Assembly: GCA_001799735.1 (NCBI GenBank)
Contig: MGUA01000026.1
Coordinates: 1 to 33,131 of the forward strand
Direction: 5' to 3'
DNA: 33,131 bases
From: Elusimicrobia bacterium GWB2_63_22
GTDB taxonomy: Bacteria > Elusimicrobiota > Elusimicrobia > Elusimicrobiales > UBA9959
Shown: positions 9,302 to 14,781 of the stretch, one piece after another
Layout: each line of letters opens with the position of its first letter
Position numbering within the stretch: the stretch's first letter is position 1
Made by a program: the position numbers and the translations under genes
The notes under the pieces: generated by a model
Told to the model about the DNA's origin: nothing
Seen by the model: the letters and a program-made list of their open reading frames with translations, nothing else
Database searches by the model: none

Positions 9302-10069
9302 TCAGGCGCCGGCGAGCTGCCCGGCCAGGGCCGCGAACTGGGGCAGCGACAGCTCCTGGGCCCGCACGGTCGGCTTGAGGCCGGCCTTCTCCACGGCCGC
9401 GGCGGCCTTGGCCTTCTCCACGCCGCAGAGGGCCAGGGAATTTATCAGGGTCTTGCGGCGGTGAGAAAAAGCTTTCCGCGCCAGGGCCCGGAACCGCTCC
9501 TCCTCCACCGGCGAAGAGAAGAAAGCCCGGGGCTTGAACAGCAGCACCGAGGAATCCACGGCCGGCACCGGCTTGAAACTGCCGGCCTTTACGTCGAGCA
9601 GCAGCTCCACGGAAGCGCGGGCGGCGGTGATGAGCGACAGGTAGCCGTGGTCGTGGTCGCCCGGGGCGGCCGTAAGCTTGCGGGCCACTTCCCGCTGGAA
9701 CATGAAAACCGCGATGGAAAAACCGCCGAAGAACAGCGTTTTCTCCAGGATGGGCGTGGCGCACTCGTAGGGCAGGTTGCCTATAAAGGCGGCGCGGCCC
9801 GGGCCGGCCAGCGCAGCCAGGTCGGCCGCCAGAAAATCCGCGTTCACCACGTTCAGGCCGGGAAATTTGGCCTTCAGGTCCGGCACCAGCCGCGGGTCTA
9901 TCTCTACCGCGGTCAGGCGGGAGCCGTACTTCGGAAAAAGAAAAGTGGTCAGCGCCCCGCCGCCGGGGCCTATCTCTATGACGCGGTCGAACTCCCCCCC
10001 GGAGAGACCTTCCGCTATGCGGGCGCAGATGCCCGCGTCGGCTAAAAAGACCTGGCTGTAGCGCGGCAT
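9302..10069 (-). CDS. rsmA: 16S rRNA (adenine1518/1519-N6) dimethyltransferase
   Basis: A 255-residue KsgA/RsmA enzyme that dimethylates two adjacent adenines near the 3' end of 16S rRNA during small-subunit maturation, using S-adenosylmethionine. Visible motifs are YSQVFLAD (usual QNFL.D), the SAM-binding EIGPGGG (32-38), VEIDPRLV, the catalytic NLPY (98-101), FMFQREVA, and the C-terminal FKPVPAVDSSV and FSHRRKTLINSL, all characteristic of the family. The start at 10069 is set by a TGATG overlap with the murC stop. A much longer open frame upstream is antisense-like read-through into murC and is not used. Confidence 0.95.
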   Translation of the reverse strand: MPRYSQVFLADAGICARIAEGLSGGEFDRVIEIGPGGGALTTFLFPKYGSRLTAVEIDPRLVPDLKAKFPGLNVVNADFLAADLAALAGPGRAAFIGNLPYECATPILEKTLFFGGFSIAVFMFQREVARKLTAAPGDHDHGYLSLITAARASVELLLDVKAGSFKPVPAVDSSVLLFKPRAFFSSPVEEERFRALARKAFSHRRKTLINSLALCGVEKAKAAAAVEKAGLKPTVRAQELSLPQFAALAGQLAGA

Positions 10070-11454
10070 CAGTTGAGGGTCTCCAGTTTGAGCTTTATTT
10101 CCTCGCCGAGCTTCCAGACGTCGCCGGCGCCGAGCGTCAGGAACACGTCCCCGGGCTTCAGCTCCTTCATCAGTTCCAGCGGACCGGGGAAAGCGGCGGC
10201 GCGGGCCTTGTGCCTGAGCAGCTGCTTTAAGATGAGGCCGGAATTTACGCCGGGCAGGGGCTTCTCTCCCGCCGCGTAGACCGGGGCCACGTAGACCCTG
10301 TCGGCGCAAGCGAAGGCGCGGCCGAAATCCTTGTACAGCAGCGCGGTGCGGGTGTAGCGGTGCGGCTGAAAAAGCACCACCAGGCGCCGGCCCGGGAAAA
10401 GCCCGCGCGCGGCCTCCAGCGTGGCCTTCACCTCGGTAGGGTGATGGCCGTAGTCGTCCACGAATTCCACCCCTTCGGCCGCGCCCAGCCTGTCCATGCG
10501 GCGCTTCACGCCGGCAAAGCTCCAAAGGCCGGCGGCCAGTTTCTTGAAGTCGAAGCCCAGGTAACAGCCGGCGGCCAGGGCCAGCAGGGAGTTGCGCACG
10601 TTGTGCGCCCCGCCGAGCCGCAGCCGCACCGGCCCCATCCTCCGGCCTTTATAGAAAGCGGTGTAGGCGGCGCCGGCCGCGCCGAATTTAACGTCGCGGG
10701 CCGTCCAGTCCGCGCCCGGGGTCAGGCCGCAGGTCAGGTGGGGCGCCTTAAGCCCGGGCAGCAGCTCCCGTATCCCGGGGTCGTCGGAACAGAGCACCGC
10801 CATGCCGTAGAACGGCACCTTGGCGAGGTGGGCGCGGAAAGCCGCCTTGAGGGTTTCCATGTTCCCGTAATGGTCCAGGTGGTCGGAGTCTATGTTGGTG
10901 ACGCAGGTGACGAGCGGCGAGAAATAGAGGAAGGAGCCGTCGGACTCGTCGGCTTCGGCCACCAGGTATTCGCTGCGGCCGAGCTTCAGGTTGGAGCCGG
11001 CGCCCTTAACTATGCCGCCCACCACGGCGGTGGCGTCGGCGCCGGCGGCCTCCAGGGCCGCGGCCGTCATGGAAGTGGTGGTGGTCTTGCCGTGCGTGCC
11101 GGCCACCGTAATGGTCTTTTTAAGTTCGGCCAGCGCGGACAGCATCAGCGCGCGCTGCACCACGGGCACGCCCAGCCGGAAAGCCTCCCGCAGCTCGGGG
11201 TTGTCGGGCTTTATCGCTGAACTGACTACCACTACGTCGGGCGAGCGCAGGGCGCGCGGCGAGTGGCCGATATGGAGCTCCGCCCCCTCCCTGGCCAGGG
11301 CCCGGGTTATCTCCGACTCCCTGGCGTCGGACCCGGAGACGCGGTAGCCGAGGCCGAGCATCAGACGGGCGATGCCGCTCATGCCGATGCCGCCTATCCC
11401 GATAAAATGGGCTTTCTTTAAATTGTCCAGCGAAAGGTCGCCTGCGTATTTCAT
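10069..11454 (-). CDS. murC: UDP-N-acetylmuramate--L-alanine ligase
   Basis: MurC (461 residues, full length) joins L-alanine to UDP-MurNAc with ATP, the first step of the peptidoglycan stem peptide, in the cytosol. Visible motifs are the N-terminal dinucleotide-fold HFIGIGGIGMSG (17-28), the ATP-binding GTHGKTTTT (119-127), EADESDGSF, TNIDSDHLDHYGN, GAHNVRNSL and VDDYGHHPTEV in the C-terminal domain. It lies outside any dcw cluster; instead it sits between a THEP1-like gene (ATGA overlap at 11451-11454) and rsmA (TGATG overlap), so translation of all three is coupled. Confidence 0.98.
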   Translation of the reverse strand: MKYAGDLSLDNLKKAHFIGIGGIGMSGIARLMLGLGYRVSGSDARESEITRALAREGAELHIGHSPRALRSPDVVVVSSAIKPDNPELREAFRLGVPVVQRALMLSALAELKKTITVAGTHGKTTTTSMTAAALEAAGADATAVVGGIVKGAGSNLKLGRSEYLVAEADESDGSFLYFSPLVTCVTNIDSDHLDHYGNMETLKAAFRAHLAKVPFYGMAVLCSDDPGIRELLPGLKAPHLTCGLTPGADWTARDVKFGAAGAAYTAFYKGRRMGPVRLRLGGAHNVRNSLLALAAGCYLGFDFKKLAAGLWSFAGVKRRMDRLGAAEGVEFVDDYGHHPTEVKATLEAARGLFPGRRLVVLFQPHRYTRTALLYKDFGRAFACADRVYVAPVYAAGEKPLPGVNSGLILKQLLRHKARAAAFPGPLELMKELKPGDVFLTLGAGDVWKLGEEIKLKLETLN

Positions 11455-12014
11455 CTTCCGTTCTCCATCAGTCTTACTTTGTAGTCCAGCCAGGCCCGGG
11501 AGGCGGCCACGGCCTCCGCCCAGGTCTCCGCGGAAAGTTCAAGTATAGCAGTATCGGCCATCCGCCCGAAAGCGTCCTCGAAAGCCGCCGCCCCTCTGCG
11601 GTAAAAGACCAGGCAGGGCGCGCCGGAGAAGAGCAGTTCCACGGCCTTGGCGCTGAACCTGGCCGAGCGCGCGGCCATCGGGCCCAGCTCGTCGAACAGC
11701 AGGATCTTCCCGGCGGCGGAGGCCGCCTCCAGCGCCGGGAGGGCGACGCGTTCCAAGGCGGCCGGGTTGAGGCCGTACTTGTTAAAAGCTTCAGCCGACA
11801 CGATGCTGCGCGACGCCAGCGTCTCGCGCCCGCCGCCCAGCGCCTCTACGTCGAAGCCGTCCCTGGCGGCGCCGGCGCGGCGTTCCAGCGTGCGGAAGCC
11901 GCCCAGCCAGCGCCCGTAATCGGCGGCCAGCCGCGCGCTCAGGCGCTCTTTCAGGGCGCAATCGCTGAAACCGAAAACCAGCCGCACGGCGGCCGGCAGG
12001 CGCGCGTCCGTCAT
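11451..12014 (-). CDS. THEP1-like nucleotide-binding-fold protein with degenerate P-loop
   Basis: A 187-residue protein whose pattern follows the THEP1 nucleoside-triphosphatase family (NTPase_1): GGF.T.E.R (38-45), R.GFDVEAL.GG (51-62), ETLASR, KYGLNPAALERVALPALEAA (79-98) and the Walker B region ILLFDELGPM (104-113, D108 and E109). The Walker A loop, however, reads GFSDCALKE (15-23) where the family has GPPGVGKT, so the P-loop Gly and Lys are lost. It probably cannot hydrolyse NTPs in the standard way and may be a binding or regulatory protein. The start is fixed by an ATGA overlap with the upstream TPR gene; its own stop overlaps murC in the same way. Homology is from motif pattern only. 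Confidence 0.75.
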   Translation of the reverse strand: MTDARLPAAVRLVFGFSDCALKERLSARLAADYGRWLGGFRTLERRAGAARDGFDVEALGGGRETLASRSIVSAEAFNKYGLNPAALERVALPALEAASAAGKILLFDELGPMAARSARFSAKAVELLFSGAPCLVFYRRGAAAFEDAFGRMADTAILELSAETWAEAVAASRAWLDYKVRLMENGR

Positions 12015-13609
12015 CGCGCCCCCCCCTGCAGCCAGCCCTTGTTGGCGGCGGCGATCTTGTTGCCCGGGTCCAGCCGGAGGGCTTGCGCGTATTCGGCGAG
12101 GGCCTTCTCCTCGGAGCCGGCCTCCACCCACGCCGCCCCGCGGCCGAGGGCGTCCAGCGCCCCGGCTCCTGAAAATTCCTCCAGGGCGGCGCCGTGCTCG
12201 CCGAGCAACAGGTAACCCAGGCCCTTGAGCGGGCCCAGGCCGCCCAGGTCGGAACCTTCCAGTTCTTCCATGGCCTCGGCGGCGTTGTCCAGCCAGGAGT
12301 CGCCCATCACCCAGAGGCCCATGTCGTTGCCGACGTCGCGCGGCTTGTAGAGGGCCTTGTTGGCGGCGTCCTTGCGGCCCGAGGGCGCCGAGGTTTCGAT
12401 ATTAAAATTCAGGCGGGCGTCGCTGCCGCCCGACACGCCCTTGACCAGCTTTTCCGCCTCGGCGGCTATCTCGTCGGCGCGCCGGGCCCGCTCCGCCGCG
12501 GGCGCGGCCGGCAGGAAATATTCGCGCTTGGTGTAGCTGACGCGGGGCCGGCGGAAAGCGGTCTCCAGGCTGCCCTTCAGCTTTTCCGCGCTCCCGGCCT
12601 GCAGGGTGGTTTTGGGAGTTTCCAGCAGCTCCACGGTAACCCGGGCGTCCTGGTCCGGAGGGATCTTCCTCAGGGCCGAGAACAGCGGGCTTTCGCGCCC
12701 GGGCTCGGGGGCGGCGGGGCGCCCGGCGTAGGCCAGCGCCATGGAAATGCCGCCCTTCTCGTTGACCGGGGCCAGCAGGAAGGCCCGCTCCAGGATGGCA
12801 GGGATCTCTTTGGCCTTCCCGGCTTTTTTCAGCGCCCAGCCCAGGCGGAACCTGGCCACGGAATCTCCCGGCTTTATGGCGACGGCGCGGCGGTACAGTT
12901 TGACCGCCTCGGCCAGCCGCCCCTCGCGCTCCCGCAGCACGGCGAGCTCCAGCACGGCGTCCTCGTACTCCGGAAAAAGAGAGACGGCCTTCTCCAGCTG
13001 CACCGCGGCCTGCTCGTAGCGGCCCAGGCGGGCGTAGAACATGCCGAGCTGGTAGCGGTAGAGCGGGCTGCCGGGTTCCAGCGCCGCGGCCGCCCTGAAA
13101 TAATCCAGCGCGCGGGCCGGCTCGCCCAGCGCGTGGTAGACCGAGCCGGCGTTCATGCGCACGTCGGAGCGGGACGGGTCCAGGCGCTCCGACTGCAGGA
13201 AATCCGCGAGGGCTTCCTTATACTGCCCGTCCCGCGCGCGCACGATGCCGCGCAGCTGGTAGGCCATGGAGCTCTTCGGGTCCAGCCGCAGCGCGGCCTC
13301 GAACTCGTCGAGCGCCTTGGCCGGCTCGCCCAGCCAGTACAGCGCCGAGCCGTACAGCAGGCGGGGCCAGGGGCTTTCCGGGCTCTTCTGGGCGGCCTTG
13401 AAAAATTCGTCGGCGGCGGCGGCGTAATCCTGGGCCTCCATCAGGCCGTAGCCGCGCTTCAGGTTGACCGCGCTCTGCTCTTCCATGATGCGGTCCCACA
13501 CGGTCCTGGAGCCGGGCGGGGCGGAAGCGGCGGAGGCGGCCGGGGAGGCCGCCGCGAGCAGCAGCGCCGCGGCGGTCGCGGCCTGCGTGATGATCGCTTT
13601 GATGCGCAT
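12011..13609 (-). CDS. Exported TPR-repeat protein
   Basis: A 532-residue protein with a signal peptide (1-27, Ala-rich) followed by about seven tetratricopeptide repeats between residues 48 and 300 (for example AKALDEFEAALRLDPKS, YKEALADFLQSERLDPS, AEAVKLYRRAVAIKPGD). A middle region (about 310-460) has no recognised domain but contains the segments RVTVELLETPKTTL and RLNFNIETSAP, and a further TPR pair lies near the C-terminus (485-525). TPR arrays act as protein-interaction scaffolds; this one would sit in the periplasm. It starts 17 bases after the LysM/FecR gene with no clear ribosome binding site, and overlaps the THEP1-like gene by ATGA. A shared envelope role is inferred from context. 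Confidence 0.9.
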   Translation of the reverse strand: MRIKAIITQAATAAALLLAAASPAASAASAPPGSRTVWDRIMEEQSAVNLKRGYGLMEAQDYAAAADEFFKAAQKSPESPWPRLLYGSALYWLGEPAKALDEFEAALRLDPKSSMAYQLRGIVRARDGQYKEALADFLQSERLDPSRSDVRMNAGSVYHALGEPARALDYFRAAAALEPGSPLYRYQLGMFYARLGRYEQAAVQLEKAVSLFPEYEDAVLELAVLREREGRLAEAVKLYRRAVAIKPGDSVARFRLGWALKKAGKAKEIPAILERAFLLAPVNEKGGISMALAYAGRPAAPEPGRESPLFSALRKIPPDQDARVTVELLETPKTTLQAGSAEKLKGSLETAFRRPRVSYTKREYFLPAAPAAERARRADEIAAEAEKLVKGVSGGSDARLNFNIETSAPSGRKDAANKALYKPRDVGNDMGLWVMGDSWLDNAAEAMEELEGSDLGGLGPLKGLGYLLLGEHGAALEEFSGAGALDALGRGAAWVEAGSEEKALAEYAQALRLDPGNKIAAANKGWLQGGAR

Positions 13610-13626: not shown

Positions 13627-14781
13627 TTACTCTTTCTCTACGGTGATCTTGCGCGGGGTGCTGAACTTGCCTTCGAAACCCAGCAGGTCCACTAGCGCCA
13701 CGCGCATGTAGTAGTCGCCGGCCGGGATGCGGCCGTTGAGGTTTATGGTCTCAAAGGCGTCGTAGGTTTTGTCCAGCGCCAGCGTGGTGAAGGCCTGGGT
13801 TTTGGAGACCTGCAGGTGGTAGCTGGCCACCGGGTTGGCCACGGAGATCATCTTCACGATCTCGTTGGCGTCGATATTCTTGTCGTCGATATTGCCGGTC
13901 TTCGGCATGTTCTTCGTAAGGTCTTTGTCGCCGGGCAGGGCCGCGTTGGCGCCGGGGGTTTTGCCGGTCTTCAGGTTGCCCAGGGAGATCTTCCCGCCCT
14001 CGCTGCGCAGCTGCGGGCCGGAGGAGGCAGTAAGGGTGGTCTGGGCTCCGTCGAGCTGCGGCAGGGGCGGCAGCTTGACCGGCTCGGAGGGCGGCATGTC
14101 CATCTTCACCTCGGCGGCGAAACCGGCCTGCACCTCCACGGTCTTGCCCTGCGCCTCCACGTCGGCCTTGCCCTTATAGACCTGCACCAGCGTGGTCAGG
14201 TCGTCCTTGAGCTTGGCGCCGAATTCTGTGTCCTTGGTCTTCGGGGTGATCCTGGCGGAGGCGGTGACCACGCGCGAGCGCAGGCCGCGCAGTTCGCCGG
14301 CCAGCAGCTCCACGTCGGTATTCTTCTTGCCGGGCGGGCGCAGCACGGCGATGGAATTGGGAAAAAGGTTTAGCACCTCGCCGGTATAGAACCGGATGTC
14401 GGCGCGGGCGTCCACCTTGGTGCGCACGGTGTCGCTCTTGAAGAGGTCCATTTTGGACGCGACGCCCCGCCAGTCGGGGGCGCCGGTGCGGCGGAACATG
14501 ACCTCGTTGACGAAATAGACCAGCTTGGCGGCCCGGAACTGCTCTTTGATCAGGTTCACGGGGACCTTGAGCGCCATGCCCGGCAGCGCTATCGACGGGT
14601 CCGCCGCCGGCAGCCTGTTGTATTTAAGGATCTCCCCCCATTTCCTGGGGTCCTTGAGGTAGGTGTTGGAGATGCTCCAGAGCGTGTCGCCGGGCTTGAC
14701 GATGATGGTCTGCAGCTCCTCGGCGGGAGTGGCCGCCACGGGCGAGAACAACAGCAGCAGCGCGGAAATCAGACGCCTCAT
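13627..14781 (-). CDS. Exported LysM and FecR domain protein
   Basis: A 384-residue envelope protein. A signal peptide (1-20) is followed by a LysM domain (about 25-75: TIIVKPGDTLWSISNTYLKDP to LPGMALKVP), which binds the glycan strands of peptidoglycan. Next is a FecR-like beta region (about 120-230: VELLAGELRGL, VYKGKADVEAQGKTVEVQAG), a Gly/Lys/Asn-rich linker, and a C-terminal Ig-like domain (about 305-384: ASYHLQVSKTQAF, AGDYYMRVALVD). The combination suggests a wall-bound structural or sensing protein. A strong ribosome binding site (AAGGAGG) is present, and the ATG overlaps the histidine kinase stop as ATGA, so the two are made together. Confidence 0.92.
   Translation of the reverse strand: MRRLISALLLLFSPVAATPAEELQTIIVKPGDTLWSISNTYLKDPRKWGEILKYNRLPAADPSIALPGMALKVPVNLIKEQFRAAKLVYFVNEVMFRRTGAPDWRGVASKMDLFKSDTVRTKVDARADIRFYTGEVLNLFPNSIAVLRPPGKKNTDVELLAGELRGLRSRVVTASARITPKTKDTEFGAKLKDDLTTLVQVYKGKADVEAQGKTVEVQAGFAAEVKMDMPPSEPVKLPPLPQLDGAQTTLTASSGPQLRSEGGKISLGNLKTGKTPGANAALPGDKDLTKNMPKTGNIDDKNIDANEIVKMISVANPVASYHLQVSKTQAFTTLALDKTYDAFETINLNGRIPAGDYYMRVALVDLLGFEGKFSTPRKITVEKE

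Follow-up and report, generated by a model that had tools for sequence, protein, structure and literature searches.

The window, which is the whole 33,131-nucleotide stretch of Elusimicrobia bacterium GWB2_63_22 DNA that was analysed, carries a gene at 11451..12014 on the minus strand that encodes a 187 amino acid protein of the THEP1 family with a degenerate P-loop. The assignment is based on the open reading frame, a match to PF03266 and a fold model. The protein is probably a pseudo-NTPase: a vertically inherited THEP1 from a region of que and mur genes, which lost its P-loop in the ancestor of the window's GTDB family (f1) and now acts by binding.

The gene is located between a TPR-repeat protein gene and murC, all on the minus strand; the initial annotation named no strand. 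The TPR gene (12011..13609) encodes a protein with an N terminus that looks, by eye only, like a signal peptide, and murC (10069..11454) encodes UDP-N-acetylmuramate--L-alanine ligase (TIGR01082, 472 bits). An ATGA overlap at 12011..12014 on the minus strand joins the TPR stop to the start of the pseudo-NTPase gene, and a second one on the same strand at 11451..11454 joins its stop to the start of murC, so that the overlaps described on both sides in the initial annotation were confirmed. Upstream in the same gene run, 5' of the TPR gene, are a LysM protein gene with a sub-cut-off FecR match (13627..14781, minus strand) and a gene for a HAMP/PAS-like histidine kinase. The genes 3' of murC encode an rsmA/ksgA-like rRNA adenine dimethylase (9302..10045, minus strand; the open reading frame as listed extends to 10525, and only this 3' part was used), an M24 peptidase and LemA. 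Named relatives are mostly Elusimicrobia or Elusimicrobiales MAGs, which places the window in Elusimicrobiota. A frame error or misread open reading frame was ruled out by full-length alignment with 25 other genes of the same genus and by the confident model.

The PF03266 (NTPase_1) profile matched the window protein with an E-value of 8.6e-16 and 58.7 bits, above the cut-off of 23.9. The match starts at profile position 25; therefore, the P-loop region contributes nothing to the score. The NCBIfam NTPase equivalog PRK13695 gave 59.1 bits, which is under its cut-off of 156, and the phmmer matches were 1ye8 and 2i3b, both THEP1 structures. An AlphaFold2 model built from 22 same-genus orthologues reached a pLDDT of 91.0 and a pTM of 0.89. 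It aligned with 1ye8 over 165 residues (Z 22.0, rmsd 1.8) and with 2i3b at Z 16.2, and the best row outside THEP1 had a Z of 7.5. Chance similarity to THEP1 was ruled out by the profile score together with the structure matches, and the homology proposed in the initial annotation stands. The predicted fold is the THEP1 variation of the RecA fold.

The P-loop was described initially as lost and replaced by GFSDCALKE. In the ungapped register, residues F16-S-D-C-A-L-K-E23 lie opposite G-x-P-G-x-G-K-T, which 28 full-length relatives from other families carry in this or a closely similar form, so the replacement is FSDCALKE, encoded at 11946..11969 on the minus strand. The motif GxxxxGK[ST] is absent, and the three glycines, the proline and the threonine of the loop are gone. 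The initial description is therefore correct for the glycine loop, but the Walker A lysine is retained as K22. Walker B is intact as Asp108-Glu109 within DELG (residues 108-111, codons at 11682..11693, minus strand). Among the 44 f1 genes at this locus, the lysine is present in 42, E109 in 42 and D108 in 40. Positions 16 and 21, which correspond to the first and last P-loop glycines, are never glycine (0/44), and the middle glycine position is glycine in three genes (L085, L086, and L094). The residue after the lysine is serine or threonine in five genes (L024, L085, L086, L093, and L095) and glutamate in 30. G39, T42, E44, G53, K79-Y80, and G111 are conserved in 41 to 44 of the 44 genes, and the conserved pocket residues are GGF-T-E-R...R-G-F and KY. 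The most degenerate members are L124 and L126 of genus g6, which have lost both the Walker A lysine and the Walker B Asp-Glu; the KY motif and the gene order are still present in both.

The distribution of the loss was followed in 340 Elusimicrobiota genomes, 59 of which belong to f1. The gene is present in 25/32 genomes of the window's genus, and the genus profile matches 72 of the 340 genomes. L150 of G138 (genus g5) was found only when a wider profile was run on the regions upstream of murC. In f1, 44 genes were found at the TPR-murC locus in 43/59 genomes (G013 carries two), and GxxxxGK[ST] is present in none of them. Full-length homologues from outside f1 retained GK[ST] in 28/28 cases and the strict motif in 27. 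The remaining one, L113 (f16), reads AKPGIGKT, with alanine for the first glycine, and is counted as intact because GKT is kept. The initial motif tally had 28 intact sequences, including the 1ye8 reference, and 44 lost ones, including L113; L150 was added afterwards. L122 (broken frame) and L127 (contig end) were left out of the non-f1 counts, L104 and L125 were dropped from A2, and L005, L011, L013, and L023 were dropped from A1. L122 (G163) is a THEP1 gene next to queE with a reading frame broken by TGA.

All 44 f1 genes formed one clade (support 98/99) in a tree from which the P-loop columns had been removed. The loss of the P-loop is one change on this tree, in which the deep order within f1 (g5/g10, g6, and long branches) is unsure. 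In f9, f12, and f13 g46, the genes L096, L108, L107, and L098 have an intact P-loop and the TPR-THEP1-murC order, and they represent the same locus before the P-loop was lost. On the evidence of the sequences, the P-loop appears to have been lost once, in the ancestor of f1. The initial annotation had asked whether homologues beside murC in related genomes also lack the P-loop; they do throughout f1 (44/44) but not in f9, f12, and f13 g46. Such intact homologues at the same locus, which it would have taken as a refutation, date the loss and do not deny it. Further NTPase_1 copies are often present elsewhere in f1 genomes. A genome-wide loss of NTPase_1 P-loops in f1 was ruled out: among 20 sampled unlinked copies, all keep GK[ST], 18 of them in the strict form, and the other two have GKT with serine replacing the first glycine. 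The window's own genome has a second NTPase_1 gene, L028 (G000:C11, 382-2034), with an intact P-loop (GGHGSGKT). Its NTPase_1 part is fused to a membrane-like N-terminal part of about 370 amino acids, and the gene adjoins DUF134 and Nitro_FeMo-Co genes.

The models suggest what replaced the loop. The window model has a strand at 11-16, a two-residue turn, and a helix from residue 19. The intact homologue L107, modelled in the same way (pLDDT 94.7), has a strand at 6-11, a loop at 12-16, and a helix from the Walker lysine, Lys17. The P-loop anion hole is thus predicted to be absent from the window protein, because its helix is predicted to begin three residues before K22. In the proposed mechanism, the f1 ancestor would have exchanged its glycine-rich P-loop for a tight turn, with the helix starting earlier and capping it, and the fold, Lys22, Asp108-Glu109, and the conserved pocket residues would have been retained through the exchange. 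A protein with neither the anion hole nor the Mg2+-ligating threonine would not be expected to hydrolyse NTP by the THEP1 mechanism. The retained cleft might instead serve for stoichiometric binding, either of a partner protein or of a small anionic ligand. Loss of hydrolysis and gain of a binding role are what we infer from this arrangement, and residual binding of nucleotide or phosphate may persist. The conservation of K22, E109, and D108, which would be superfluous in a purely structural protein, counts against the pseudo-NTPase reading, as does the serine or threonine after the lysine in 5/44 genes. The non-canonical, pseudoenzyme-like role put forward in the initial annotation is likely.

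The same residues could also be explained by an enzyme that still binds NTP or hydrolyses it slowly, in which Lys22 and Asp108-Glu109 work without the glycine loop. Each of K22 and E109 is retained in 42/44 genes, DELG is otherwise mostly intact, and the two residues are lost jointly in the two g6 genes, which are one lineage and so count as a single event. The serine or threonine after the lysine in five genes and the glycine at the middle position in three point the same way. However, the complete absence of glycine at positions 16 and 21, the glutamate that follows the lysine in 30/44 genes, and the predicted early helix, which removes the anion hole, make such an enzyme unlikely.

The pseudo-NTPase is maintained by selection. 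In the three closest same-genus pairs, its dN/dS was 0.155, 0.173, and 0.102; in these pairs MurC gave 0.161, 0.065, and 0.096, and TPR gave 0.157, 0.128, and 0.077. A fourth pair, L012-L017, gave 0.120 for the pseudo-NTPase. Nonsynonymous changes were fewer than the neutral expectation in the three pairs (P 2.9e-8, 1.2e-8, and 2.4e-13) and in the fourth (P 1.4e-16). More distant pairs reached dN/dS values of up to about 0.5, where dS is poorly estimated in these GC-rich genes. The pseudo-NTPase is under purifying selection in close pairs, which indicates that the protein matters to its carriers. It also evolves faster relative to MurC than the intact homologues do. The median THEP1/MurC distance ratio over 60 loci with both genes was 2.09 between f1 genera, where distances are near saturation, 1.69 within f1 genera, and 1.25 among intact homologues. 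The ratio of 2.09 vs 1.25, together with the absence of the gene from seven genomes, indicates weakened constraint, a further point against the pseudo-NTPase reading. Some f1 members may be decaying, for example in g6, where Walker B is lost too.

The gene is dispensable and is not required by murC. In 7/59 f1 genomes (G023, G028, G029, G134, G135, G137, and G159), it is absent and TPR directly adjoins murC. Nine other f1 genomes without the gene (G004, G009, G018, G026, G133, G136, G141, G146, and G149) have no full murC locus in their assemblies and were not scored as losses. In G028, G023, and G135, the TPR stop and the murC start share an ATGA overlap. G029 (L130) has a 68-nt remnant between TPR and murC in which the former start codon's ATGA is preserved and which ends in MENN-stop just before murC, where same-genus C termini read MENxx; this stretch is a deletion scar of the pseudo-NTPase gene. 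In the sampled genomes of f13 (g47 and g48), f14, and f15, the gene was absent near murC; with the single exception of G219, TPR and murC are neighbours there. In G023, murC itself is in two pieces (L161), with about 107 bases between them.

These losses, the scar in G029, the faster evolution relative to MurC, and the lost Walker B in g6 would suit a decaying relic that does little as a protein and serves mainly as a translational spacer coupling the TPR gene to murC. Such a reading is very unlikely, because close pairs have a dN/dS of 0.10-0.17 (P at most 3e-8) and positions G39, T42, E44, G53, K79-Y80, and G111 have hardly changed across f1. Moreover, the TPR-murC overlap re-forms without the gene in G028, G023, and G135, so a spacer is not needed.

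The gene is followed by murC in 17/18 f1 loci outside the window's genus and in same-genus loci wherever the contig reaches it, usually with an ATGA overlap. In L084 (G158), rsmA directly follows the gene and murC is missing; this locus lies on a short contig from a MAG of 68% completeness, and its order may be an assembly artefact. Among the 30 non-f1 loci, 20 have murC within about 4 kb, and 17 have a que gene on the same strand (queD, queE, queC, or queF) at that distance. The typical order is MurI-QueD-QueC-[THEP1]-QueF-MurC-MurB in f18 and MurI-QueD-QueE-[THEP1]-SAM hydroxide adenosyltransferase-RlmI-like-MurC-MurB in f4. The non-f1 loci in the MurI-QueD-QueC/QueE-[THEP1]-QueF-MurC-MurB setting include L103, L116, L119, L097, L104, L105, and L113. 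Pfam confirmed PTPS (QueD), radical-SAM (QueE), QueF, racemase (MurI), SAM_HAT, PUA-methyltransferase (RlmI-like), and MurB in representatives. The narrower names QueD, QueE, MurI, and RlmI are those that we take to apply to these neighbours, and the QueC and Ddl labels in the region are likewise presumed. Since intact THEP1 occurs among que/mur genes next to murC, the f1 linkage to murC looks inherited from this region.

The initial annotation had proposed that the protein could sense or regulate the synthesis of cell-wall precursors. A dedicated role of this kind, acting on MurC or on precursor synthesis, could account for the 17/18 loci and their overlaps, but it is most improbable because intact THEP1 shares the murC linkage among que genes and murC lacks the gene beside it in many relatives. 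The proposal draws on gene position, and it is left unsupported by the f1 genomes in which TPR-murC adjacency is kept without the gene and by the murC neighbours of other families, which have an intact P-loop and often lie among queuosine genes. MurC is a positional candidate for the partner of the pseudo-NTPase.

The que/mur neighbourhood is a possible clue to THEP1 function. QueF is present in 294/340 genomes with or without THEP1; thus THEP1 is unnecessary for queuosine, and co-occurrence of the two is uninformative as a functional test. According to the 2005 paper on aaTHEP1 (PMC1079890), four archaea have THEP1 adjacent to the gene of a tRNA methyltransferase, which is an independent hint at tRNA modification. 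It can be speculated, at rather long odds, that a P-loop NTPase became, once in Elusimicrobiota, a conserved ligand-sensing pseudoenzyme whose former P-loop forms a helix cap and whose lysine and Asp-Glu pair were retained, and that it reads a nucleotide or 7-deazaguanine-like metabolite of its ancestral que/mur neighbourhood and feeds this into envelope synthesis. If true, this neighbourhood would also hint at a queuosine-linked role for the THEP1 family at large.

The pseudo-NTPase thus offers a dated, single-origin loss of the P-loop, as the tree indicates, in a family whose in vivo role is given as unknown in the 2005 paper (PMC1079890). Ready controls exist: intact orthologues share its gene order, and f1 genomes themselves carry intact paralogues. 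The pair of pseudo-NTPase and intact homologue is suited to finding out which function THEP1 has besides hydrolysis, and the que/mur neighbourhood of intact THEP1 (17/30 non-f1 loci) is a testable clue to its function. A search of the open-licence literature found neither a THEP1 without a P-loop nor THEP1 with queuosine genes; the survey of THEP1 itself covered the phylum Elusimicrobiota.

Among known systems, the protein is closest to THEP1 (COG1618, PF03266), represented by A. aeolicus aaTHEP1 (1ye8) and human HCR-NTPase/NTPCR (2i3b), with which it shares the fold at the Z-scores given above, the GF-T-E...R-G-F residues, the tyrosine of KY(G), and the Walker B D-E-x-G. The aaTHEP1 protein has a typical P-loop and slow ATPase/GTPase activity (PMC1079890). 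Unlike the THEP1 family, the window protein has neither the P-loop glycines nor the Mg-ligand threonine, its helix 1 starts earlier in the model, and its gene sits between TPR and murC. The guanylate-kinase-like domains of MAGUK proteins are a P-loop kinase fold that became a binding module. They offer an analogy only, an enzyme fold kept for binding in an unrelated lineage; their Foldseek rows (such as 4wsi and 4f4j) were weak, with E-values of 0.03 or worse, and no homology is claimed. The intact Elusimicrobiota THEP1 genes L096, L108, L107, and L098 share the TPR-THEP1-murC order with the window gene and differ from it in their intact P-loops, which read GNPGVGKT, GNPGIGKT, and GTPGVGKT.
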